46,532 nt of DNA from a virus: the IMG/VR virus record IMGVR_UViG_3300047548_001316, positions 1-46,532 of that record; one strand, written 5' to 3'. The number at the start of each line of letters is the position of its first letter. Position 1 is the stretch's first letter. The notes under the pieces are model-generated. The model searched no databases. It was not told where the DNA came from and worked only from the letters and a program-made list of their open reading frames with translations. The position numbers and the translations under genes were made by a program. Below, one piece after another: positions 2,160 through 18,367 of the stretch.

Positions 2160-3326
2160 ATGGCTGACTCACATTTTTATCGCGAATCTCTTTTTACCGA
2201 AGTTGCATCGGTCCCAACCCCTTCATCAGGATTAGTTGCAGTCTATGCTAAGACTGATAGTAAGTTATATTATAAGGATGATGTTGGGACAGAAGTTGAA
2301 ATAGGTGGTAGTGGATCATCTATACCCGGGTCATCAAACTTATGGATTCCTGCTGCACAACTAGTTCCAAAAACAACTAACGGATGCGGAGTCAATTCAA
2401 GAGAAACAGATACATATGATCAAAATTATGATACATGTGTATTCGATTCTGTGAATGCTGAATATGGTGATTTCACTGTTGTAATGCCTGACAACTATAA
2501 TCTTGGAACTATCACTGCGAAGTTTCATTGGACTGCATTTACAGCCTCAACAGGAACAGTTGCATGGGGCATTAAAGGAGTATCATTGACAGACAATGAT
2601 TCCATTGATCTTGATGCAGGAACAGCACAAACAGTAACAGATACATATATTTTATCTGGAGATGAGCATGTCACAGACTATACATCTTCTGTAACAATTG
2701 CCGGAACACCTCTTGCAAATGAGCGAGTGCAATTTACAGTCTTTCGTGATCCAACTATTGATACATTAGCGGCTGATGCTGAATTAATCGGAATCGAAAT
2801 TGTGTATAATGGTGGTGGAAATGGTGGGTCAGGAATCGGTGGAACAGTGTTTAGAGCAGATGCTTCTGACTTTATTCCAACAACAACGAATGGATGTGGT
2901 GTTGATTCACAAGAGACAGCTACAAATGATATTAACAGAGATTTTCTAACATTTGCAGATACTGTTGATAGTAGTGCGATGTTTTGGTTTAATTGGCCTT
3001 CGGGATGGAATACTGCAAAAGTGTCATTCTTTTGGACAGCAACAACAGGAACCGGATCGGTTGTTTGGAGTGCAGCAATGCGAACATTTTCTGATGGTGA
3101 TTCTACTGATCTTGCTCTTGGAACGGCACAAACTGTTACTGATGCCGCAGGATCAGCGAATACAGTTAGACAATCAGGGGCAACGAGTGGAATTACACCC
3201 GCAGGAACAATTGGAGCAGGTAAACGAACAGTATTGAAAATATCTCGTTTGGCAAACAGCGATGGTGCTGATGATATGGCTGCAACCGCTTATTTGGAAG
3301 GTGTGATGATTGAGAAAGCATCATAA
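2160..3326 (+). CDS. Tail-fibre/virion protein with a tandem duplicated beta-domain
   Basis: 388 residues. The N-terminal ~48 residues form a small attachment-like segment (Leu-Tyr-Tyr-Lys-Asp-Asp-Val-Gly). Two homologous domains follow at residues ~61-217 and ~230-385. Each opens with Thr-Thr-Asn-Gly-Cys-Gly-Val-(N/D)-Ser, has a central Phe-x-Trp-Thr-Ala block, then Gly-Thr-Ala-Gln-Thr-Val-Thr-Asp, and ends with an Ala-rich strand. A Gly-rich linker (~218-228) separates them. This Asn-Gly-Cys type of beta-domain recurs in marine phage fibres; carbohydrate binding is plausible but not shown. It lies 9 nt after the previous gene in a co-directional fibre operon. Confidence 0.65.
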   Translation: MADSHFYRESLFTEVASVPTPSSGLVAVYAKTDSKLYYKDDVGTEVEIGGSGSSIPGSSNLWIPAAQLVPKTTNGCGVNSRETDTYDQNYDTCVFDSVNAEYGDFTVVMPDNYNLGTITAKFHWTAFTASTGTVAWGIKGVSLTDNDSIDLDAGTAQTVTDTYILSGDEHVTDYTSSVTIAGTPLANERVQFTVFRDPTIDTLAADAELIGIEIVYNGGGNGGSGIGGTVFRADASDFIPTTTNGCGVDSQETATNDINRDFLTFADTVDSSAMFWFNWPSGWNTAKVSFFWTATTGTGSVVWSAAMRTFSDGDSTDLALGTAQTVTDAAGSANTVRQSGATSGITPAGTIGAGKRTVLKISRLANSDGADDMAATAYLEGVMIEKAS

Positions 3327-3332
3327 TATTTT

Positions 3333-3947
3333 ATGGGTAGAAGAGTGAGACATTTCAATCCTGGACATGCGGGCGCGACTCTTGCACTTGATTCTCGGTT
3401 TATAACGGGCTTGAGTAACACTGATCCTGTAACAACATGGGAGGATAGGTCTAGTTCAAACAACGATGCCACCCAAGGGACTGCTAATGATAGACCACTT
3501 TTTCAGACTGCATACCAAGGGGGTTGTCCTGCATTACAATTCGATGGAGCAACGGATCATTTAGATTTTGCATCCAGTATAATAAGCGGAACTCCGGATG
3601 GTTCAGTTGTATTTTGTTTTAAACTTGACACGGACCCGCCCGCTAGTGCGACTAAAGCGGGGCCAGTTTTTGGTGATTTTGGAACAGCAGCAGCATTAAA
3701 TGTGTTTCCATGGACAGACGGAAACATTTATGATGATTTTGGCTCAACTGTCCGCTCTAATGCGGGGGACCCTTCATTATCTTTCACGACGACCCGTGTT
3801 GTCTATCAACATTCCGCAACAAATGATTGGGTTATTTTTTTATCGACGGAACGTTGTTTTATTCTAAAGTCTCCAATGTTGTTAGTTGGTCTGGGGCTCA
3901 AACTATCGGTCCCGCAGGAAATACATATTTCTTATATGGACATCTAA
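3333..3947 (+). CDS. LamG/concanavalin-like tail-fibre protein, N-terminal part (frame interrupted)
   Basis: Encodes the first ~169 residues of a lectin-like protein beginning Met-Gly-Arg-Arg-Val-Arg-His-Phe-Asn-Pro-Gly-His. It then contains the LamG-style core: Thr-Trp-Glu-Asp-Arg, Arg-Pro-Leu-Phe and Leu-Gln-Phe-Asp-Gly-Ala-x-Asp. Homology to the complete paralogue at 4498-5223 stops at a seven-T run (3835-3841); beyond it this frame encodes ~35 unrelated residues to a stop at 3947. The continuation lies one base back, in the frame ending at 4042. In this frame the sequence reads T-TTT-TTA, a known minus-one slippery heptamer, so a programmed shift cannot be excluded, but a one-base deletion or assembly error is simpler. 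Confidence 0.6.
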   Translation: MGRRVRHFNPGHAGATLALDSRFITGLSNTDPVTTWEDRSSSNNDATQGTANDRPLFQTAYQGGCPALQFDGATDHLDFASSIISGTPDGSVVFCFKLDTDPPASATKAGPVFGDFGTAAALNVFPWTDGNIYDDFGSTVRSNAGDPSLSFTTTRVVYQHSATNDWVIFLSTERCFILKSPMLLVGLGLKLSVPQEIHISYMDI

Positions 3948-4042
3948 TGAATGCAACATTTTTACCCAAAAAACTTACAAACTCTCAAAGAAAGAGACTA
4001 GAACATGCTACAGCATTTTCATTTAAAGTCCCCTGTAACTAA
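3827..4042 (+). CDS. LamG-like tail-fibre protein, C-terminal part (frame interrupted)
   Basis: This is the continuation of the gene starting at 3333, in the minus-one frame after the T run. It encodes Phe-Ile-Asp-Gly-Thr-Leu-Phe, a Gly-rich strand and the terminal Arg-Lys-Arg-Leu-Glu-His-Ala-Thr-Ala-Phe-Ser-Phe-Lys. That tail matches the end of the paralogue at 4498-5223 (Arg-Arg-Val-Glu-His-Ala-Ala-Ala-Phe-Ser-Phe-Lys). The TTG at 3827 is unlikely to be a true start. Joined, the two pieces would make a protein of ~236 residues, close to the 241 of the paralogue. Confidence 0.55.
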   Translation: MGYFFIDGTLFYSKVSNVVSWSGAQTIGPAGNTYFLYGHLMNATFLPKKLTNSQRKRLEHATAFSFKVPCN

Positions 4043-4048
4043 TAAATA
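4041..4048 (+). promoter_or_regulatory. Late-promoter-like box AATAAATA
   Basis: Box ends 5 nt before the ATG at 4054. One of the recurring NNTAAATA elements in front of structural genes. Confidence 0.5.
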
Positions 4049-4053
4049 CATTT

Positions 4054-4497
4054 ATGACGAAAAAATATTACAACACAACCACATTCAACAGAGTTGATAT
4101 CGAAGATTCAACAATGGAGCTTTGGATTTCGGTAAACAATCCAAAAGCTGAAATCTATCAACTTGTTCCTGAACAACCGCCACATGATCCGGAAACACAA
4201 AGAGTAGAATGGGGTTCTACAGGATGGGTAATTATTGATCTTACGGCAGAAGAAATTACGGCAAAAACACGCAAAGTCTGGCCGACAAAAGCTGAATTTT
4301 GGAATGAATTTACGAGTGCAGAACAAATTGCAATTATGGACTCTACTATTCCCGATATCAGACTTCTTGATCGGCAGCTTCTTGTTTGGCCTGGAGAGGT
4401 TTGGAGCGATGATGTTCGTGTACAAGCTGGTTTAGATGGGCTTGTTGGTGTTGGTATTCTAACACCAGAACGCAAAACTGAAATATTAAGTAAGTAA
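4054..4497 (+). CDS. Small tail-fibre-associated protein, possible fibre assembly chaperone
   Basis: 147 residues, not confidently recognised. The N-terminal ~60 residues look beta-rich (Thr-Thr-Thr-Phe-Asn-Arg-Val-Asp; Trp-Val-Ile-Ile-Asp-Leu-Thr). The C-terminal half is helical with Phe-Trp-Asn-Glu-Phe-Thr-Ser-Ala-Glu-Gln and Val-Gly-Ile-Leu-Thr-Pro-Glu-Arg. Short proteins with such a tail often follow fibre genes and act as fibre chaperones or small structural proteins. It lies between two paralogous LamG-type genes and its stop abuts the ATG of the next gene (4498), which argues for a joint role. It has its own upstream AATAAATA box. The chaperone role is inferred from size and position only. 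Confidence 0.45.
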   Translation: MTKKYYNTTTFNRVDIEDSTMELWISVNNPKAEIYQLVPEQPPHDPETQRVEWGSTGWVIIDLTAEEITAKTRKVWPTKAEFWNEFTSAEQIAIMDSTIPDIRLLDRQLLVWPGEVWSDDVRVQAGLDGLVGVGILTPERKTEILSK

Positions 4498-5223
4498 ATG
4501 CATAGACGAGCTCGTCATTTCAATCCTGGGCACGCTGGCGCTGTGTTAGCTCTGGACTCGCGGTTTATTACCGGACTGAGTGATGGCGATTCAGTGGCGA
4601 CTTGGGAGGATCGGACAAACAATAATTATGACGTTACGCAGTCAAGCAGTGGATCAAGACCCTTGTTCAAGGCAGCGCAATCTGGAGGCTCTAGCGTTGT
4701 TCGGTTTGACGGTTCAAATGATCGATTGTTGCGATCTGATACAGGATTTCCGACTGGCGATTTTACAACAATAGTCGTGGCAAAAGAAACCCGCACATTG
4801 TCAGGCGGTCAATACGGGGCTGTTTTTCATTACGGAGCAGCATCAATTGGAGCTTCGGTTTTTGTCCTGTTTGGAGATGATTCTAATATTGGAGATGATT
4901 CGTTTGGAGCGAGTCAATTCGGAGACGCTTTCGGAGTAGCAAACTCGACAGGAAGATATATAATTGGGCGGATAAGTCGCACATCAACATCATATGATGC
5001 AAGAGTCGATGGCGGTTCCTCTTCAAGCAAGACAATGACCACTAGCACATCATTAAGAGGTGCGGATGGATTTTCGATTGGAGCATATAATCCAGGGGTG
5101 GGTGGTGGAAACTTAAATGGGGATGTTGGGGTCATTGCTATATTTTCCTCTGCTCTTAGTTCACCACTGAGCCGACGCGTAGAACACGCGGCCGCGTTTA
5201 GCTTTAAGATCGCATGCCAATGA
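4498..5223 (+). CDS. LamG/concanavalin-like tail-fibre or receptor-binding protein
   Basis: 241 residues, intact paralogue of the frame-broken gene at 3333-4042. The N-terminus reads Arg-His-Phe-Asn-Pro-Gly-His-Ala-Gly-Ala. The middle has Trp-Glu-Asp-Arg, Arg-Pro-Leu-Phe and Val-Arg-Phe-Asp-Gly-Ser-Asn-Asp, typical of a concanavalin/LamG jelly-roll. The C-terminus is Arg-Arg-Val-Glu-His-Ala-Ala-Ala-Phe-Ser-Phe-Lys. Such domains in phage fibres usually bind surface glycans; that role is inferred. It starts immediately after the previous stop and overlaps the next gene by 10 nt. Codons here are noticeably more GC-rich than in its paralogue, suggesting separate acquisition rather than a recent local duplication. 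Confidence 0.6.
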   Translation: MHRRARHFNPGHAGAVLALDSRFITGLSDGDSVATWEDRTNNNYDVTQSSSGSRPLFKAAQSGGSSVVRFDGSNDRLLRSDTGFPTGDFTTIVVAKETRTLSGGQYGAVFHYGAASIGASVFVLFGDDSNIGDDSFGASQFGDAFGVANSTGRYIIGRISRTSTSYDARVDGGSSSSKTMTTSTSLRGADGFSIGAYNPGVGGGNLNGDVGVIAIFSSALSSPLSRRVEHAAAFSFKIACQ

Positions 5224-5675
5224 CCACGCTCTACCTCGACAACCAAACCCGCACCAAGACAGATGAAAGTAACAAAATGACATCAATATTCAAACAACCA
5301 GTATCTCTTTTGTTTATCAAAGCGAATACGTTTGAGCTGTTGAAAGATTTTGAATATCATGTTGGTCAATTTCCATCTGATGATATTATTGTTGTACCAA
5401 CAGGTTTTACTACAGATTTAGCATCAATTCCCCGGCTACTATGGTTTATATTTCCACCGACAGGTTCATATGGAAAAGCAGCAATTATACACGATTATCT
5501 TATTGTAGAAAATAAGCGAACACGTAAGGAGTGTGATGATATTTTCTTAGAAGCGATGAAGGTAGATGATGTTGGGTTTTTTACCAGAAACATCATCTAC
5601 CTTGGTGTGCGCTTTTACAACACTATTATTCTTCAACTGTCCAAAATGCTGCATCTCCTCGCCCATGCTTTTTGA
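5214..5675 (+). CDS. DUF1353 family protein
   Basis: The core matches DUF1353: Val-Pro-Thr-Gly-Phe-Thr-Thr-Asp-Leu-Ala-Ser-Ile-Pro-Arg, then Phe-Pro-Pro-Thr-Gly-Ser-Tyr-Gly-Lys-Ala-Ala, then Ile-His-Asp-Tyr and a Lys-Glu-Cys-Asp-Asp-Ile-Phe-Leu-Glu-Ala-Met helix. This family is common in phage structural or lysis regions; its biochemical role is not established. The first 21 residues from the ATG at 5214 are polar and non-conserved, so the ATG at 5277 is a credible alternative start (133 residues). The C-terminal ~28 residues are hydrophobic and could touch a membrane. The 3' end overlaps the convergent RadA-like gene by 50 nt. Confidence 0.75.
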   Translation: MPMTTLYLDNQTRTKTDESNKMTSIFKQPVSLLFIKANTFELLKDFEYHVGQFPSDDIIVVPTGFTTDLASIPRLLWFIFPPTGSYGKAAIIHDYLIVENKRTRKECDDIFLEAMKVDDVGFFTRNIIYLGVRFYNTIILQLSKMLHLLAHAF

Positions 5676-6525
5676 TCTTTCCAGAATCACTAAGACCTTT
5701 GATCAAAGTATAAGCTTTCGAAGAAGTGACATTCAATTCTCTGATTACTCTCTCTTTGGTGATGAACGGTGACTCGGTCATTTTGAGTATGTTATTGATT
5801 TGTTCGTCACTCATTGCAGACTTTGATTTCACATTTACGATTTCACGCGTAACATCAAACTCAAACCCACGGTGGCCGAACAAAAACGAAAACTGCTTCG
5901 TTGGACCATAACGATTCTTTGACGAACCAATCATCCGGTATTCCTCGAGATCTGGATCCAACTCAATTTGAAAGTTAGCACCAACAGCGTGTGTAATATA
6001 CGTTGAACCTTTGTATTGACCAGATTTTGTAAGGTGAAGAATCACCCCAATAGCACATTCAAATTGCTCACAATAATCAATGATTTTATCAACAATTTTC
6101 TTTTCCCTTTTCTCTTTTGGGAGATCTTCATCGAGTGTAATACATGGAAATGAGTCAATGATTACGATATCTGACTCCCGGCAGATGTCTTTGATCTTGT
6201 TGATGTCTGTTTCGTTAGAAAGCAGCACATCTTCAACACCAAGTCGACGACAGTTGAATGCTACCTGCCGAAGATCTTCTTCTCCAGTAAGATAAGCAAC
6301 TCGTTTTCCCTGAAGTGCAAGAGAGTTAAGGATCTGAAGAAGTGCACTAGATTTACCAGCACCTGCAACACCTGTAAGTGTGAAAGACAATCCAGGAAGA
6401 ATACCGCTCCCAAACAGCTCATCAATTTTTTCAATTCCCGTTTTCATCCTATTGAAAAACCGATCTGGGATTTCAATATCTGAAACTTTGGTAAGTTTTG
6501 TAATCGTATTTGATGTGGATCTCAT
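5626..6525 (-). CDS. RadA-like RecA-fold ATPase with a C-terminal winged-helix-like domain
   Basis: 299 residues. Walker A Gly-Val-Ala-Gly-Ala-Gly-Lys-Ser-Ser at 52-60 and Walker B Val-Ile-Ile-Asp-Ser at 121-125. A Lys-Asn-Arg-Tyr-Gly motif at 203-207 corresponds to the KNRFG motif of RadA/Sms, the bacterial branch-migration ATPase. The zinc finger and Lon-like domain of full-length RadA are missing. Residues ~240-299 instead look like a winged helix (Lys-Glu-Arg-Val-Ile-Arg-Glu-Leu-Asn-Val; Gly-Arg-Gly-Asp-Ala-Ala-Phe-Trp), a likely DNA-binding tail. Probable role: a DNA helicase or recombination ATPase in replication. No NNTAAATA late box; a TATAAT-like hexamer lies at 6554-6559 on the minus strand, which would fit early expression. 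The 3' end overlaps DUF1353. Confidence 0.75.
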   Translation of the reverse strand: MRSTSNTITKLTKVSDIEIPDRFFNRMKTGIEKIDELFGSGILPGLSFTLTGVAGAGKSSALLQILNSLALQGKRVAYLTGEEDLRQVAFNCRRLGVEDVLLSNETDINKIKDICRESDIVIIDSFPCITLDEDLPKEKREKKIVDKIIDYCEQFECAIGVILHLTKSGQYKGSTYITHAVGANFQIELDPDLEEYRMIGSSKNRYGPTKQFSFLFGHRGFEFDVTREIVNVKSKSAMSDEQINNILKMTESPFITKERVIRELNVTSSKAYTLIKGLSDSGKIKKHGRGDAAFWTVEE

Positions 6526-6588
6526 TATAATTGAAGTATTGTTTCTTTCTTCAATTATACGGTTTTTCCTTTGGAATTTTTGTACTTT

Positions 6589-6744
6589 TTAACTTTTCTC
6601 CTGTTTGTACTTTCCTATTAATTCCTCAAGAATTTTGAGACTTTGTTCGAGAGCGAGCTGACCAGGAATGGACAACCTTTCAAAGGTAAGAACTTCTGCA
6701 ATTAACTCAGCACTTGTCTTTACCTTTGAAAGGTTGTCATCCAT
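6589..6744 (-). CDS. Small unknown protein, 51 residues
   Basis: Reading on the minus strand from the ATG at 6744-6742 gives Met-Asp-Asp-Asn-Leu-Ser-Lys-Val-Lys and ends Tyr-Lys-Gln-Glu-Lys-Ser at the TAA at 6591-6589. The ATG overlaps the stop of the preceding gene by one base (TAATG), a common translational-coupling arrangement, which supports it as a real gene. The product is charged and mostly helical, with no recognised domain. The coding sequence contains a perfect 19-bp inverted repeat (6671-6689 with 6720-6738). Confidence 0.55.
   Translation of the reverse strand: MDDNLSKVKTSAELIAEVLTFERLSIPGQLALEQSLKILEELIGKYKQEKS
6671..6738. repeat. Perfect 19-bp inverted repeat, 30-nt loop, with nested palindromes
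   Basis: The arm 6671-6689 is the exact reverse complement of 6720-6738. Each arm contains a 13-bp palindrome of form ACCTTTSAAAGGT (6675-6687 and 6722-6734). The repeat lies wholly within the 51-residue gene and could form a stable mRNA hairpin or two protein-binding sites. Confidence 0.85.
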
Positions 6745-6944
6745 TAGTCAATATTATCTAATTGTGTTAATGTTTGATCAACCCCATTTTCGATAATAGA
6801 TTGAGCTTTATCTATCCAATGTAGAGTGGTCTCATATAATTCTGTATCATTTATATCTTCAATGATATTTTCTAACTCCTCAAAAGCAATATCAATACTT
6901 TCGACGCAAGAAGCAATATCTCTTTTAATATGTGATTTATTCAT
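6744..6944 (-). CDS. Small acidic helical protein of unknown function
   Basis: 66 residues, strongly acidic and predicted helical (Phe-Glu-Glu-Leu-Glu-Asn-Ile-Ile-Glu-Asp-Ile-Asn; Ile-Asp-Lys-Ala-Gln-Ser-Ile-Ile-Glu-Asn). No domain recognised. It lies 8 nt after the metallopeptidase-like gene and is coupled by TAATG to the following 51-residue gene, so the three are probably co-transcribed. Small phage proteins of this kind may modify host functions; nothing in the sequence proves it. Confidence 0.6.
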   Translation of the reverse strand: MNKSHIKRDIASCVESIDIAFEELENIIEDINDTELYETTLHWIDKAQSIIENGVDQTLTQLDNID

Positions 6945-6952
6945 TACATGGC

Positions 6953-7426
6953 TTATTTAAAGCCATGATCAACGTTTTTGGTACTGTTAATTAGCTTTTT
7001 TACTACAACAGCCTTTTTGTACATTTGTAGAGCAGCACTTGTAATATTATCACCAAAATATCTAGCATCTTTCTCAATCGGACAACGGTAGTAAGCCATT
7101 CCAGATGAGTCGTAATTTTCGTCAAACGATATTTTCATGATTTTGCACTGATACCAATGCCTGAACTCATGTAAAAACCGAGCAAAAAATGATGCTAAAG
7201 GATTTCTATAATCTCTTTCATACAGATAGATGGAATTTGTATCCCACTTGTAGCAATTGATCTTTTTTGATAGATGAAGTGCTATTGTAATAGTTTTTCT
7301 CTTTTTCGGTGTCTTATTAAGTTTGATGTTATAAATCATTGTCATAACATCAGAAAGTATGTCAAAATCTACAAAACTAAAATGTTTCCTTGCAAAATAC
7401 GTAGGTTTTACAATAATTTTGGTCAT
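6953..7426 (-). CDS. Predicted zinc metallopeptidase-like protein (HExxH)
   Basis: 157 residues with His-Glu-Phe-Arg-His at 86-90, the zincin HExxH pattern, on a hydrophobic helix (Phe-Phe-Ala-Arg-Phe-Leu before it). A second conserved-looking element, Cys-Pro-Ile-Glu-Lys-Asp-Ala-Arg at 115-122, could supply the third zinc ligand (Glu118), as in the HExxH...E arrangement of small phage and toxin-antitoxin-linked peptidases. No signal peptide, so it would act in the cytoplasm. Substrate unknown: host-protein cleavage or prohead processing are possibilities, and the accessory-gene context favours the former. The ATG overlaps the stop of the preceding gene by one base. Confidence 0.55.
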   Translation of the reverse strand: MTKIIVKPTYFARKHFSFVDFDILSDVMTMIYNIKLNKTPKKRKTITIALHLSKKINCYKWDTNSIYLYERDYRNPLASFFARFLHEFRHWYQCKIMKISFDENYDSSGMAYYRCPIEKDARYFGDNITSAALQMYKKAVVVKKLINSTKNVDHGFK

Positions 7427-7830
7427 TATACATGAGAGTAGTAATCATCCTCAGTTGGAAGGCAATTAATGAATAGATTGTCGTTTTCAATGAACTCTAC
7501 ACTCTCAAGAACCCTGGTGATTTCTGATGGGTTATTAAATGTATTGTCATATTCTCGTTTCCCGTATCCAATTACTTCATGGCATGCAGCATATACATTC
7601 CAATTTGGGTAGTGCCGGGTAATTCCACTCTCATAAATTTTATCACTCAACTCTTTTGCGTAAGACATACACAATTCTTTATAGAGCTTTGCTTTATATG
7701 GAGGTAGGTTTTTTAACCCAGCTTTTTTAATTTCACTAGCTGATTTAACACCATCACCCCAGTTAATTTCGGAAATATAATTCCAGAAATCACTGGCCAT
7801 CAGTTTTTTTAGTTGGTCAGACCCAATCAT
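7426..7830 (-). CDS. Conserved-looking phage protein of unknown function
   Basis: 134 residues, not recognised. Aromatic N-terminus (Asp-Phe-Trp-Asn-Tyr-Ile-Ser-Glu-Ile-Asn-Trp-Gly-Asp-Gly), a Lys-rich helix (Tyr-Lys-Ala-Lys-Leu-Tyr-Lys-Glu-Leu) and an acidic tail (Glu-Asp-Asp-Tyr-Tyr). No membrane segment or signal peptide. It overlaps both neighbours (4 nt with the nuclease gene, 1 nt with the metallopeptidase-like gene), so all three should be translated from one transcript. Confidence 0.6.
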   Translation of the reverse strand: MIGSDQLKKLMASDFWNYISEINWGDGVKSASEIKKAGLKNLPPYKAKLYKELCMSYAKELSDKIYESGITRHYPNWNVYAACHEVIGYGKREYDNTFNNPSEITRVLESVEFIENDNLFINCLPTEDDYYSHV

Positions 7831-8504
7831 TTTTGTTCTCTGTTATGTTTTAGAATAGACACTACCTCTAATTTCATGTAAGGCATATTGTAATTATATA
7901 TATTTTCCTCATTAATATAGAAAATCTGAATATTCTTGCATTTCTTAAAAGAAAGCTTTTCATACATGTAAGCATAAAGCGAAAGCTGCAAGCAATAGTC
8001 GTTATATTCACAATGCTGAAGATAATCAACAGGGTATAGAAGATATTCATTGTACTTGTTCCATGTTCTGAATTGCTTGTTTGTCTTAAAGTCTATTATA
8101 GAGAAGGTATCGTCAAAATCAACTACAAGATCAGACGTACCAGCAAGTTTATTCTTACAATCCCATAATATCTTTTCAGCTGTTATTTGCGTATAATCAT
8201 TTAAGATATTGATGTCGAATTGTTTATATAACCACCCATACTCACTATCTTTCAGATTATGTCTTACATAGTCCTCAAGAAGTTTGTGTATTTTTTTCCC
8301 TTTAGTAGTTGCTATATCAGCAATATCTTGCCAACCTTGGATTACCTGTGCAGGTGTCAAACCATCACGTTTTGCAACACGTTTAGCATGCCCTTCTTTA
8401 TCAAAAGGTTTTTTATACTTTGATAGTAGCTGTGAAACACTAATATATCGTTCACCTGTTGGTTCCCAAATATATTTGTGTTCTTTTTCCTCGAATCTAA
8501 TCAT
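7827..8504 (-). CDS. PD-(D/E)XK nuclease, RecB/Cas4-like
   Basis: 225 residues. N-terminal strand-turn Tyr-Ile-Ser-Val-Ser-Gln-Leu-Leu, then Gly-Lys-Lys-Ile-His at 69-73. The catalytic core is Gly-Thr-Ser-Asp (Asp125) followed by Asp-Phe-Lys-Thr-Asn-Lys at 138-143 (Asp138, Lys140), and a helix with Gln173 and Tyr177 (Q-x3-Y, as in RecB-type nucleases). Together these give the D-(D/E)-x-K-Q-Y layout. No cysteine cluster for the Cas4 iron-sulfur centre is visible. Likely role: processing of DNA ends in recombination-dependent replication or host-DNA degradation, possibly with the RadA-like ATPase in the same cluster. Confidence 0.75.
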   Translation of the reverse strand: MIRFEEKEHKYIWEPTGERYISVSQLLSKYKKPFDKEGHAKRVAKRDGLTPAQVIQGWQDIADIATTKGKKIHKLLEDYVRHNLKDSEYGWLYKQFDINILNDYTQITAEKILWDCKNKLAGTSDLVVDFDDTFSIIDFKTNKQFRTWNKYNEYLLYPVDYLQHCEYNDYCLQLSLYAYMYEKLSFKKCKNIQIFYINEENIYNYNMPYMKLEVVSILKHNREQK

Positions 8505-10807: not shown

Positions 10808-13558
10808 ATGGCTGATCGTAAAAGAAAAGATAGTTATCTTGGAAATCCAAACCTTCCTACTGCTTTTGCACAACATGAATATGATGAATTTCGTGCAAAA
10901 GAGTTATTAAAATGTAAAGATAACATGCTGCATTTTGCAGAGAATTACTTTTACATTGTTCATCCAGATGAAGGCCGTATTAGAATACCTCTTCATAATT
11001 ACCAAAAGAGAGTTCTTAGGAAAATTATGGAAGATAGATTTTTTATACTACTATCTCCGAGACAGATCGGTAAAGCTCTTGCACTAGACACACCAATACC
11101 CACACCGACTGGTTGGACAACAATGGGGGAATTAAAAGATGGAGATGTTATTTTTGGCAGAGATGGTAGACATTGTAAGGTTGTAAAAGCTCATGACGTA
11201 ATGTATAGTAGGGTTTGTTATGAAGTAGAGTTTGATAATGGAGAGAAAATAATTGCTGATTCTGAACATAACTGGTTTACACAAACAAGAAATGATAGAG
11301 AAAATAAAAGACCTGGTGGTGTTCGAACCACAAAAGAAATATTTGAAACCCTAAATGCATATAAAAGTAAAGAACCAAATCATAGAATACCTTCATGTGT
11401 AATTGGATTGACATGCGATAGGGCAGACCTCCCTATTGATCCATATCTTCTTGGCCTGTGGTTGGGTGATGGTAATTGTTCTAGTGGTACTATTACTGTT
11501 GGTAAAAGAGACTATAAAGAAATAATTTCAAATCTTGAGAAGTATAATAACCAGTTTAATATTATTACCAAATATTACAGTAAAACGGGAAACGGTGTTG
11601 CTTCTGTAAAGCTTAATTCCAAAGACGGGGGATTATCTCTAACAATGACTCTTAAAAAAGAAGGACTATTAAACAATAAACACATTCCAAAAGAATATCT
11701 AAGAGCTTCAAGAGAGCAAAGAGTTGAGTTACTTAAGGGGCTAATTGACAGCGATGGATATGTTAGCCCAAAAGGTATAATTCAATTTTACAACACAAAT
11801 ATAAACCTTACAATTCAAGTTAAAGAATTAATTGAGTCATTGGGATATAAAACAACATATAAAACAATGATTCCAAAATTATATGGAAAAGAATGTAGTA
11901 TGTGTGGCATTGTCACATTTACTGCAAGAGAGATGTTAGCAACTTTATCATTTAAAACATCGAGAATAAAGGAAAATGTTGTTGAACAACCCTCCTCAGA
12001 ATTAAGAAATCATTGGCATTATATTAAGTGTGTGAGGTTAGTTGATAGTGTACCAGTTAGATGTATAACCGTAGACTCTTCGGATAATTTATTCTTATGT
12101 GGCAAAACTTTAATACCCACACACAACACCACATTATATACTATATGTGCACTACACCATGCTTGCTTTAATAGTGATAAACGAATTGTTATTATCGCTA
12201 ACAAAGAAGCAACAGCTATTGAAATTTTTAAACGTGTAAAACTTGCATATGAGGAACTCCCAAATTGGCTCAAGCCGGGTATTGACGGAGCATATGGAGC
12301 AACATCAATGAAATTAGCTAATGGATCTGAAGTAAGTATTTCAACAACAACTGGATCAGCAGCTCGAGGGATGTCCATATCACTTTTAATTTTGGATGAG
12401 TTAGCTTTCGTTGACCCACCATCTATCTTAGAAGATTTCTGGAGATCTGTATTCCCAACAATTTCTTCAGCTAAAAAATCAAAAATATTAGTTGCATCAA
12501 CACCAAATGGCACAGGTAACCTATTTCATAAGTTATGGGTAGGGGCAGTTAATAAAGAAAATGGATTCGGATATGATGAAGTTCTTTGGAATGAACCACC
12601 TGGTCGAGATGAAGAATTTAAACGTAAAACCATTCAAGCGGTTGGTTATGAAGGGTGGTTGCAAGAATATCAAGGGATTTTTCTCGATTTTGGTGATGGA
12701 GCTGTTGATCATGAATTGTTTGACAAGCTAAAAGAAGGTTGTAAAGACCCAAAGTATGTTCTTGAGGATGGTGCTTTAAGAATTTTTGAGCCTTTTAGAG
12801 AAGGTAGAATATATTGCGCTGGTATTGATACTGCAGAAGGTATTGGAAAAGATGCGTCTGTTATACAAATATTTGATATTACAGATCTTCAAGATATTAC
12901 GCAGTGTGCTGTATACCACAATAATAGAATTTCTGTCTACGAATATACAACAAAGGCGTTTGAAATATTAAACCAATGGGGGCGACCAATAGTCTTTATT
13001 GAGAGAAATGGTGTGGGAGCTCAAGTTGCTGATAGATTTAAATTGCAATTAGGATATGAAAATGTTGTCTCATGGGGTGGCCAGCTTGCTAAAAGAGCTC
13101 AGCAAATTGGCATGATTGCTCATTCTAATACAAAACCAAAAGCAGTCCAAAATATGAGATATTGGATGAACGAACTTAAATGTGTTAGATTGAATGATAT
13201 AGACACACTTAAAGAGCTTAAAGAATTTACACGCAAACCTAATGGAATGTGGAGTGCTAAAGATGGTTTCCATGATGATAGAGTAACATCAATGATGTGG
13301 TGCTTGATGGCTTTATATGATGAAATCTGTTCTCAATATTTTGATGTAGAAGAAAGGGATGATAATGGGAGACCTAAAAAAATATCAACCACTGATTGGG
13401 GACTAACTGATTATGTAAATCCACATTCAATATATACACCAGAAGCTCTTGAGTCCATAGATACATCTCTTGCCCCTGTTATATTTGGATTTGGTAATGA
13501 ATATGATATCGATGAAAATGAACTACATTCTCTTGGCTGGAGACCTCTTGGGTTCTAA
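10808..13558 (+). CDS. terL: Large terminase subunit (T4 gp17-like) interrupted by an intein
   Basis: 916 residues before splicing, 565 after removal of residues 90-440. The packaging ATPase core is split inside Walker A: Ser-Pro-Arg-Gln-Ile-Gly-Lys (83-89) rejoins Thr-Thr (441-442). Walker B is Leu-Ile-Leu-Asp-Glu (Asp530, Glu531), followed by the coupling motif Ala-Ser-Thr-Pro-Asn-Gly. The RNase-H-like nuclease has Asp674 (Gly-Ile-Asp-Thr-Ala-Glu), Glu732 (Ile-Glu-Arg-Asn-Gly) and Asp823/Asp824 (Phe-His-Asp-Asp-Arg). It cuts and pumps phage DNA into the prohead through the portal. The spliced length is near T4 gp17 (610). No convincing NNTAAATA box lies at the usual spacing; only ACTAAATT abuts the ATG. 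No fragment lacking the intein is present, so packaging should depend on splicing. Confidence 0.95.
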   Translation: MADRKRKDSYLGNPNLPTAFAQHEYDEFRAKELLKCKDNMLHFAENYFYIVHPDEGRIRIPLHNYQKRVLRKIMEDRFFILLSPRQIGKALALDTPIPTPTGWTTMGELKDGDVIFGRDGRHCKVVKAHDVMYSRVCYEVEFDNGEKIIADSEHNWFTQTRNDRENKRPGGVRTTKEIFETLNAYKSKEPNHRIPSCVIGLTCDRADLPIDPYLLGLWLGDGNCSSGTITVGKRDYKEIISNLEKYNNQFNIITKYYSKTGNGVASVKLNSKDGGLSLTMTLKKEGLLNNKHIPKEYLRASREQRVELLKGLIDSDGYVSPKGIIQFYNTNINLTIQVKELIESLGYKTTYKTMIPKLYGKECSMCGIVTFTAREMLATLSFKTSRIKENVVEQPSSELRNHWHYIKCVRLVDSVPVRCITVDSSDNLFLCGKTLIPTHNTTLYTICALHHACFNSDKRIVIIANKEATAIEIFKRVKLAYEELPNWLKPGIDGAYGATSMKLANGSEVSISTTTGSAARGMSISLLILDELAFVDPPSILEDFWRSVFPTISSAKKSKILVASTPNGTGNLFHKLWVGAVNKENGFGYDEVLWNEPPGRDEEFKRKTIQAVGYEGWLQEYQGIFLDFGDGAVDHELFDKLKEGCKDPKYVLEDGALRIFEPFREGRIYCAGIDTAEGIGKDASVIQIFDITDLQDITQCAVYHNNRISVYEYTTKAFEILNQWGRPIVFIERNGVGAQVADRFKLQLGYENVVSWGGQLAKRAQQIGMIAHSNTKPKAVQNMRYWMNELKCVRLNDIDTLKELKEFTRKPNGMWSAKDGFHDDRVTSMMWCLMALYDEICSQYFDVEERDDNGRPKKISTTDWGLTDYVNPHSIYTPEALESIDTSLAPVIFGFGNEYDIDENELHSLGWRPLGF
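11075..12127 (+). other. Intein with LAGLIDADG endonuclease, class 3 signature, in terL Walker A
   Basis: 351 residues (terL residues 90-440), starting Ala-Leu-Ala-Leu-Asp-Thr-Pro-Ile-Pro and ending Ile-Pro-Thr-His-Asn before Thr+1. Block B has Gly145...His154 (B:10) and Trp156 (B:12). Block F has Cys419 where classes 1 and 2 usually have Asp (F:4). Block G has Thr438 (G:5), His439 and Asn440. A non-nucleophilic Ala at position 1 plus this Trp-Cys-Thr triplet matches class 3 inteins, in which the F:4 Cys makes the first attack. The homing domain has two dodecapeptides: Leu-Leu-Gly-Leu-Trp-Leu-Gly-Asp-Gly at 214-222 and Leu-Lys-Gly-Leu-Ile-Asp-Ser-Asp-Gly near 309-317. Both keep the acidic residue, so it may be an active LAGLIDADG endonuclease targeting inteinless terL. 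Confidence 0.92.
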
Positions 13559-16508: not shown

Positions 16509-16510
16509 TT

Positions 16511-16540
16511 ATAAAGGGGTAGATATATCTACCCCTTTAT
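16511..16540 (+). terminator. Intrinsic terminator after the tail sheath gene
   Basis: A 30-bp perfect palindrome (16511-16540) that can fold to a hairpin with a C/G-rich centre and is followed by TTTTG. It begins 2 nt after the sheath stop. An A-tract on the other side makes it potentially bidirectional, but the neighbours are both on the plus strand. Confidence 0.85.
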
Positions 16541-16560
16541 TTTTGTTAATATGTAAATAT

Positions 16561-16568
16561 AATAAATA
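16561..16568 (+). promoter_or_regulatory. Late-promoter-like box AATAAATA
   Basis: Ends 10 nt before the homing-endonuclease ATG at 16579; the spacing is longer than at virion genes. Confidence 0.4.
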
Positions 16569-16578
16569 ACACATCACT

Positions 16579-18309
16579 ATGAAATCGTCTTATCAAGCTA
16601 TAATAGAAGAAATTTACAGAAGATACCCAAGAAGTGGTATTAAAGTTGGTTCTGGTATTAATTATAAAAAAATGGTATTAGATACCGATATTATCTCAAG
16701 AATCAATGATCTAACTTCTTTTTTACCACAAACTGCTTCCCTGATAGAAAGGGTATATTGTATTTCAAATAATATTACGGAAATACAATTATGTCCAATT
16801 CAAGGAACACCTCTTAAGTTTAATAAAGCTACTAGAAAATATTCTATGAAAATGGAATGTATTGGTAAGCTCAGAAAAAAGCCATCAACCTACAGGTATA
16901 AGGAAGTATATAGTGGTATTAAAGATGAACTAGATAAAAAATTCAGTAGTGGTGAATATCACTTTTTACCTAAAGAAGTTGTGATAAACTGTTTTGATAA
17001 GATTGGTAGAACAAACATAACACCTAATGAAATTAAACACAACTATGATCTCTTTTGTAGTATTTTAAAACATACAGAATTTCTACCATATAATCTGACC
17101 AATTGGTCAGAGAGGATATATTGTATTAAAAATAACATTAAAGATATTCAAATTGACAATACTAACGGACAACCTGTGCGTTTTGTAAATAGGAACATTG
17201 GGTATTCAAAACACAGCAATAGGCAATCTGCTGATGATAAAATTAGAAATAACATCATAGAATATATTGAGAACTGCGGCTTTAGATTTTTAAGTTTTGA
17301 TTATAGAGGAAACCAGATTTATAAAGCAAATATACAATGTAATACATGTAATACTATCAAAAAGACATTAACTATATGCGGTCATTGGAAGAGTGTCTAT
17401 TGTCAACAATGTAATGGAATTATTGGTCGATCAAAAGCAGAAGAAGAAATATGTAATTTTCTTGAAAGTAATGATATACAAATCACCAGGAACCACGTGG
17501 GGTTTTTAAATTTAAAAGAACTTGACATATATAGTGAACAACATAAGATAGGAATTGAATATTGCGGTATATTATGGCATTCTTTTGGAACAAAATACCC
17601 TAGAAATGATTATAGAGAAAAAGAGAAAAAGTATAATCATCACCTTAAGCACTCGATATGTAATAGTAAAAATATAAAACTATTGACAATTTTCGAAAAT
17701 GAATGGATACTTAAAAAAGATATAGTGAAATCTATTATATTATCAAAGTTTAATAAGTTTGAAAGAAAAATTAATGGTAGAGAGTGTATGTTTAGGATTA
17801 TAACAAAACAGGAAGCTGATAGATTCTTAAATGATACACACCTTCAGGGTTCATGTACTTCATCACTACATTGTGGGCTTTTTTTTAATGATGAGTTAGT
17901 AGCTTGTATGACGTTTGGTAGCAGAAAAATAACAAGGGGTTCTCCAAAATTTGAATTATTAAGATTTTCCACAAAACTTAATACTAAAATACATGGCGGT
18001 GCTTCGAAGTTGTTCAAAAATGCCTTAACTTATATACCAAATTGTATCATTACGACATACTCTGACAAAAGATATGGATCTAAAACATTTTATGAACAGC
18101 TTGGGTTTAAGTTAATAAGAGAATCACTACCAAATTATTTTTATACAAAAAATTGTATAACTTTGGAAAATAGAATGAAATATCAAAAGAAAAAGCTCAA
18201 AAATTTTGATTCATATGATGATAATAAAACAGAAACACAAATAATGTATGAAGAAGGTTATAGAAAGATATATGATTGTGGTAATTATGTGTTTGAGTAT
18301 CATAATTAG
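16579..18309 (+). CDS. Free-standing homing endonuclease (Vsr-like/EDxHD type) with an acetyltransferase-like C-terminus
   Basis: 576 residues. Two related N-terminal segments (residues ~40-85 and ~145-200, each with Glu-Arg-(V/I)-Tyr-Cys-Ile-x-Asn-Asn-Ile) look like repeated DNA-recognition modules. A four-Cys zinc ribbon follows (Cys254, Cys257, Cys275, Cys278). The nuclease core at ~286-370 has Lys-Ala-Glu-Glu-Glu-Ile, Glu-Leu-Asp-Ile-Tyr, Ile-Gly-Ile-Glu-Tyr-Cys-Gly-Ile-Leu-Trp-His-Ser and His-His-Leu-Lys-His, then Leu-Leu-Thr-Ile-Phe-Glu-Asn-Glu-Trp. This fits very-short-patch-repair-like homing enzymes. Residues ~385-520 resemble a GNAT fold (Ala-Cys-Met-Thr-Phe-Gly; Phe-Tyr-Glu-Gln-Leu-Gly-Phe), as in composite phage HEGs. 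It is inserted between sheath and tube genes, a likely homing site. Confidence 0.75.
   Translation: MKSSYQAIIEEIYRRYPRSGIKVGSGINYKKMVLDTDIISRINDLTSFLPQTASLIERVYCISNNITEIQLCPIQGTPLKFNKATRKYSMKMECIGKLRKKPSTYRYKEVYSGIKDELDKKFSSGEYHFLPKEVVINCFDKIGRTNITPNEIKHNYDLFCSILKHTEFLPYNLTNWSERIYCIKNNIKDIQIDNTNGQPVRFVNRNIGYSKHSNRQSADDKIRNNIIEYIENCGFRFLSFDYRGNQIYKANIQCNTCNTIKKTLTICGHWKSVYCQQCNGIIGRSKAEEEICNFLESNDIQITRNHVGFLNLKELDIYSEQHKIGIEYCGILWHSFGTKYPRNDYREKEKKYNHHLKHSICNSKNIKLLTIFENEWILKKDIVKSIILSKFNKFERKINGRECMFRIITKQEADRFLNDTHLQGSCTSSLHCGLFFNDELVACMTFGSRKITRGSPKFELLRFSTKLNTKIHGGASKLFKNALTYIPNCIITTYSDKRYGSKTFYEQLGFKLIRESLPNYFYTKNCITLENRMKYQKKKLKNFDSYDDNKTETQIMYEEGYRKIYDCGNYVFEYHN
17095..17110. repeat. 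16-bp perfect palindrome in the homing endonuclease gene
   Basis: CTGACCAATTGGTCAG reads the same on both strands. It falls inside the second N-terminal repeat segment of the homing endonuclease gene. A binding site is possible but nothing else supports one. Confidence 0.7.
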
Positions 18310-18329
18310 ATTAAACAATTGTGCCTAAA

Positions 18330-18337
18330 TATAAATA
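18330..18337 (+). promoter_or_regulatory. Late-promoter-like box TATAAATA, upstream of a second box
   Basis: Exact TATAAATA, 30 nt before the tube ATG at 18368. With the box at 18352-18359 it gives two potential start sites for the tail tube gene downstream of the homing endonuclease insertion. Confidence 0.5.
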
Positions 18338-18351
18338 ACAAGTGTAAGAGC

Positions 18352-18359
18352 ATTAAATA
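18352..18359 (+). promoter_or_regulatory. Late-promoter-like box ATTAAATA
   Basis: Ends 8 nt before the tail tube ATG at 18368. Confidence 0.5.
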
Positions 18360-18367
18360 TTACATAT

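Follow-up and report, generated by a model that had tools for sequence, protein, structure and literature searches.

A predicted class 3 intein with a LAGLIDADG endonuclease domain splits Walker A in a T4-like phage terminase

It is necessary to ask what occupies the ATP-binding loop of this phage terminase gene, by what chemistry it might be removed from the protein, and whether it moves between genomes. The gene lies in a viral stretch of 46,532 nucleotides (IMG/VR record IMGVR_UViG_3300047548_001316, positions 1 to 46,532; hereafter, the window). An open reading frame of 916 aa at 10808-13558 on the plus strand encodes a T4-like terminase large subunit (TerL), as judged by matches to Pfam Terminase_6N and Terminase_6C and to the PHROG terminase families; genes for the tail tube and the tail sheath come after it in the window (PHROG). 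The Walker A motif, SPRQIGK/TT, is split between Lys and Thr by 351 residues (TerL residues 90-440), which start Ala-Leu-Ala-Leu (ALALDTPIPTPTGW) and end IPTHN (Pro-Thr-His-Asn); SPRQIGK stands immediately before them and TTLYT, providing Thr+1, immediately after. We favour, with a probability of about 0.93, the reading that a mobile class 3 intein, equipped with a homing endonuclease of the LAGLIDADG family, has entered the TerL of a T4-like phage at the bond that joins Lys and Thr in Walker A. The layout of the intein, its ends, the conservation of its catalytic residues, its predicted fold and its sporadic occurrence at a single site are documented here; by analogy with known inteins, the element would leave by class 3 chemistry, the terminase would need it to do so, and it would spread by homing.

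The boundaries can be established from an empty allele. A contig found by scanning with the terminase part alone carries an uninterrupted terL (L042), to which the joined flanks of the window align over 565/565 extein residues, with 87.1% identity, no gap and 0 nt extra at the K/T junction. Because this allele is collinear with the joined exteins, both ends of the intein are fixed independently of any reading of motifs, and the limits proposed in the first-pass annotation (11075-12127), together with its placing of the split between the Lys and Thr of Walker A, prove to be exact. The dN/dS of the exteins between the window and L042 is 0.057; purifying selection thus acts on the spliced terminase, which would have to be made from the interrupted gene. 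Since an interrupted P-loop cannot form an ATP site, splicing should be needed for packaging, and an equal argument has been made for the TerL inteins of mycobacteriophages (PMC5050341). The features of the gene are collected in Table 1.

Table 1. Features of the interrupted terL gene, in window coordinates; residue numbers are those of the intein.
Feature	Coordinates	Strand	Basis
TerL N-extein, 89 aa, ending ...SPRQIGK (Walker A up to Lys)	10808..11074	+	Pfam Terminase_6N, PHROG terminase
Predicted class 3 intein of 351 aa, homing endonuclease included	11075..12127	+	phmmer to 6rix/6riy/6bs8 and PI-SceI; empty allele L042; model
Cys48, counterpart of redox-trap Cys48 in MsmDnaB1	11216..11218	+	alignment; PMC6195587
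Block B core: Asp62, His65 (B:10), Trp67 (B:12)	11258..11275	+	alignment
LAGLIDADG homing endonuclease domain, residues about 112-300	11408..11974	+	Pfam LAGLIDADG_3 and Hom_end; PI-SceI
First LAGLIDADG motif LLGLWLGDG, predicted catalytic Asp132	11447..11473	+	aligned to PI-SceI residue 218
Second LAGLIDADG motif LLKGLIDSDG, predicted catalytic Asp227	11729..11758	+	aligned to PI-SceI residue 326
Cys330 (F:4), predicted initiating nucleophile	12062..12064	+	alignment, 182/182
Thr349 (G:5), His350 (G:6), Asn351 (G:7)	12119..12127	+	alignment
TerL C-extein, 476 aa and stop, first residue Thr+1; retains intact Walker B, C-motif and nuclease motifs	12128..13558	+	

Class 3 inteins are defined in sequence by a first residue other than Ser, Thr or Cys, together with Trp at B:12, Cys at F:4 and Thr at G:5 (PMC3196547). 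With its boundary set by the empty allele, the window intein has Ala at position 1. Its top matches in the PDB are solved class 3 inteins, MchDnaB1 (6rix, E 1.7e-29; 6riy) and MsmDnaB1 (6bs8, 6own), followed by the class 1 intein gp41-1 (E 4e-4 and 0.011); among the phmmer matches, those to MchDnaB1 and to PI-SceI (E 1.6e-6) are far above chance. The published catalytic positions of MchDnaB1 (PMC7664689) and MsmDnaB1 (PMC6195587) were used as the alignment reference. Trp67, His65 and Asp62 of the window intein fall on the Trp67, His65 and Asp62 of both, Cys330 falls on Cys124 of MchDnaB1 and Cys118 of MsmDnaB1, Thr349 on Thr143 and Thr137, respectively, and Asn351 on the terminal Asn. In TerL numbering, Trp67, Cys330, Thr349, His350 and Asn351 are Trp156, Cys419, Thr438, His439 and Asn440, so that the alignment places Cys419 at F:4 and Trp156 at B:12, as the first-pass annotation had proposed; the Ala1, Trp, Cys and Thr that it claimed are all borne out by this alignment, by the structural model and by 182 related sequences. 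The other features of a HINT domain (blocks A, B, F and G, the B:10 His, the terminal His-Asn and Thr+1) are all present, although Pfam Intein_splicing matches at 20 bits, short of its cut-off of 35.8. On a tree built without a class 1 outgroup, the intein falls inside a supported group of relatives that have the Trp-Cys-Thr (WCT) triplet. By every sequence-defining feature in the literature, assignment to class 3 is supported.

Two details of the earlier description need adjustment. It had placed the penultimate His, the Asn and Thr+1 in the defining set along with Ala1, Trp, Cys and Thr; the latter four do define class 3, but the former belong to inteins of all classes, in which a penultimate His, Asn and Ser/Thr/Cys+1 are general features (PMC5222942). 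It had also treated the replacement of the block-B Thr by Asp as a departure from the norm. The Asp is indeed there, but it is the class 3 norm: the block-B Thr is usually absent from class 3 inteins, Asp occupies its place in MsmDnaB1 (PMC6195587), and the same residue occurs in 165/182 of the sequences compared here.

Those 182 sequences comprise the window intein together with relatives of viral-contig, phage and bacterial-genome origin, picked by similarity to the window. Trp67, Cys330, His65 and Asn351 are kept in 182/182, Thr349 in 181/182 and Ala1 in 156/182; these counts are in part circular, as one of the two patterns used in the viral scan itself holds the block-F Cys. Bacterial genomes were scanned with endonuclease patterns alone, and the scan based on the terminase made no use of the intein; neither scan is biased toward that Cys. 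The sole sequence with Ser rather than Thr at G:5 is L162, and the penultimate His is exchanged in two close relatives, for Lys in L008 and for Ser in L032, a mini-intein without endonuclease.

From the chemistry of its homologues, splicing can be pictured as follows. In the precursor, Cys330, aided by His65 and Thr349, would attack the Lys-1/Ala1 peptide bond to give a block-F branched thioester, from which the N-extein would be handed to Thr+1 by transesterification; Asn351 would then cyclise and an acyl shift would rebuild the SPRQIGKTT loop, so that the ATPase activity of TerL would appear only after splicing. Alternatively, Thr+1 might attack the N-terminal junction directly, in a class 2-like or class 1-like fashion, with Cys330 not the initiator. 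Ala at position 1 is allowed in class 2 as well (PMC5222942), but the complete WCT set and the close homology to class 3 inteins whose nucleophile is the F:4 Cys (PMC5222942, PMC7664689) make direct attack very improbable, and as of 2011 KlbA was the sole known source of class 2 (PMC3196547).

The predicted structure agrees with a class 3 domain and bears on the endonuclease. An AlphaFold2 model of the intein, built on an 18-row alignment, has a mean pLDDT of 89.7 and a pTM of 0.88. In VIA-align 2 comparisons, its splicing domain superimposes on MchDnaB1 (6riy) with Z 22.0 and rmsd 1.2 Å over 130 residues and on MsmDnaB1 (6bs8) with Z 21.6 and 1.2 Å over 127 residues, while the whole model matches PI-SceI (1jva) with Z 29.0 and 3.2 Å over 335 residues. 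The predicted fold is therefore that of a class 3 HINT domain bearing a PI-SceI-like endonuclease. PI-SceI, the yeast VMA intein endonuclease, shares the domain layout and the catalytic aspartates; it is a class 1 intein with Cys1, is longer and has an extra DNA-binding region. Pfam LAGLIDADG_3 scores above its cut-off within the window intein, and in the register taken from the HMMER alignment to PI-SceI both motifs have the acidic residue claimed for them, Asp132 and Asp227, which recur in 177/182 and 173/182 rows (two rows being gapped at each position).

Whether this endonuclease is active is a separate matter, and the same class 3 intein could be kept by vertical descent only, its endonuclease inactive. 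Endonuclease-free mini-inteins at the same K/T site in two relatives (L032 and L034) would be consistent with such decay, as would the lower conservation of the endonuclease region than of the splicing part (43-54% compared with 63-70%). Against this, both catalytic Asp residues and the PI-SceI-like predicted fold are retained, and in the close pair L004/L005 purifying selection acts on the endonuclease, with a dN/dS of 0.053 beside 0.067 for the splicing part. The relative nearest to the window intein is a mini-intein with 63% amino-acid identity over shared columns, and the nearest with an endonuclease has 59%; these are too distant for a dN/dS of the endonuclease in the window copy, whose predicted nuclease activity thus rests on the retained motifs.

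Distribution also speaks against descent by inheritance alone. Among the 77 terminase relatives with both sides of the site readable, the site is empty in 74 and holds an intein in three, always at the identical bond. The intein is missing from the 87% identical sister gene L042 and is scattered over a tree of 56 terminases (the intein-bearing ones included), on which its presence changes 12 times, compared with a shuffled mean of 13.3, at least eight changes being forced by supported branches. Intein identity exceeds terminase identity in 49/55 pairs, and the divergences of the two across the 55 pairs (Spearman 0.22, p 0.11) fit independent histories, although weakly. An inactive, purely inherited element is accordingly possible but rather unlikely, and the intein looks like a mobile element gained and lost among related phages. 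As a mobile intein, it would move in mixed infections, where the endonuclease would cut intein-free terL at the K/T site and the intein would be copied in. L042 may not be a substrate, because the DNA at its site differs from that of the window (70% identity over 40 nt); beside the site, no clear rise in DNA identity between the two that would indicate co-conversion was found. Composition is uninformative as a sign of recent arrival (G+C 33.6% in the intein, 32.6 and 36.1% in the exteins, 34.6% in the window), and the intein occurs only once in the window's record. The pair of empty and filled genes, along with the endonuclease-free inteins at the same bond, makes gain, loss and homing directly testable.

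Elsewhere in the window, a free-standing homing endonuclease of 576 aa (phrog_3339; 16579-18309, 28.1% G+C) follows the tail sheath gene and is a putative second mobile element. The gene is missing at that position in L042, where the window alignment leaps from 16509 to 18367; a search of the 74-kb contig of L042, made without a positive control, found no match to this endonuclease or to the intein elsewhere.

The literature already has class 3 inteins that lie in the P-loop of a terminase, and the window adds one more member. Those in the TerL of mycobacteriophages, including the TerL1-a site, have been described (PMC5050341); splicing was shown for five mycobacteriophage terminase inteins, and cutting of intein-free partner alleles for two (PMC5050341). 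The TerL1-a inteins (Kelley et al. 2016, PMC5050341) likewise lie between the Walker A Lys and Thr, whereas their hosts are TerL1-type terminases of mycobacteriophages; the mycobacteriophage TerL inteins compared are about 30-36% identical. MchDnaB1 and MsmDnaB1 (6rix/6riy, 6bs8/6own) share Ala1, Cys48, the DxxH motif, Trp67, the F:4 Cys, the G:5 Thr and the His-Asn end, within 1.2 Å over 127-130 residues, but reside in bacterial DnaB, lack an endonuclease and are 48-50% identical over aligned splicing residues. The Klebsiella phages RaK2 and K64-1 have terminases with hedgehog/Hint and LAGLIDADG domains (PMC5259590) and, like Synechococcus phage B23 (MN695335), combine a T4-like terminase with a LAGLIDADG endonuclease. 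The RaK2 and B23 inteins occupy the same GK/T site and are 33.5% and 39.3% identical to that of the window, although in the RaK2 intein neither Cys48 nor the block-B Asp is present. Of 50,697 phage records, 725 show some similarity to the query, always at less than 60% identity. The window intein extends class 3 inteins to a terminase group with roughly 50% sequence identity among its members.

One further residue merits comment. In MsmDnaB1, a disulfide between Cys48 and Cys118 reversibly inhibits splicing, and Cys48 was described as non-conserved (PMC6195587). Its near-universal occurrence among the relatives examined here, namely in the window intein and 170/182 of a sample picked by similarity to the window, qualifies that description (PMC6195587). 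Retention of Cys48 and the MsmDnaB1 precedent (PMC6195587) might suggest that the intein acts on packaging as a redox switch, in which oxidation would form a Cys48-Cys330 disulfide and hold the terminase unspliced. Every tested substitution of Cys48 stops splicing of MsmDnaB1 (PMC6195587), however, so that conservation may be structural rather than a sign of sensing, and Thr, Val, Met or Ser is found at position 48 in a few natural class 3 inteins; we consider such a switch improbable. The L163 intein is a natural case without Cys48. We found no redox data in the literature for any phage terminase intein. More doubtful still is the general proposal that in T4-like phages the class 3 inteins of TerL retain a Cys48-Cys F:4 redox trap, through which oxidation in the infected cell would delay terminase maturation and packaging; were it true, the intein would have a regulatory role in addition to its mobility. 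An association of Cys48 with Asp62, strong in raw counts (161 sequences with both, eight with neither, nine and four mixed), comes down on the tree to about three independent cases, with which a sign test cannot reach 0.05, and is not claimed.

Some relatives have a second interruption. In L003, L005 and L021, the class 3 intein is present and terL is also broken near Walker B; L002 likewise combines the Walker A intein with a fracture near Walker B. The fractured genes of L003 and L021 span 3734-7947 and 2395-6323, respectively. In both, the 5' piece ends with a short N-intein-like tail and is followed by a separate ORF, which in L003 is a GIY-YIG homing endonuclease; the 3' piece opens with roughly 115 residues, and those of L003 match the consensus Cat intein (6dsl, E 1.9e-8). 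The arrangement is similar to that of split inteins of the AceL-TerL type (PMC11766414), and a doubly interrupted terminase would have to be spliced twice, once in cis and once in trans. A self-splicing intron was considered for the second interruption in L003, L005 and L021 and rejected, there being no Rfam match and the flanking coding pieces reading as split-intein halves. L076 (317-3697) is fractured at the same Walker B position yet has no class 3 intein; its second ORF, of 912 aa, combines the remainder of TerL with a C-intein-like part and a possible endonuclease. The Walker A of L076 reads PRQASKTT, and the same replacement of the Gly before Lys by Ser (RQASK) is seen in some T4-like terminases, both with and without the intein (L031, L013, L030 and L076).
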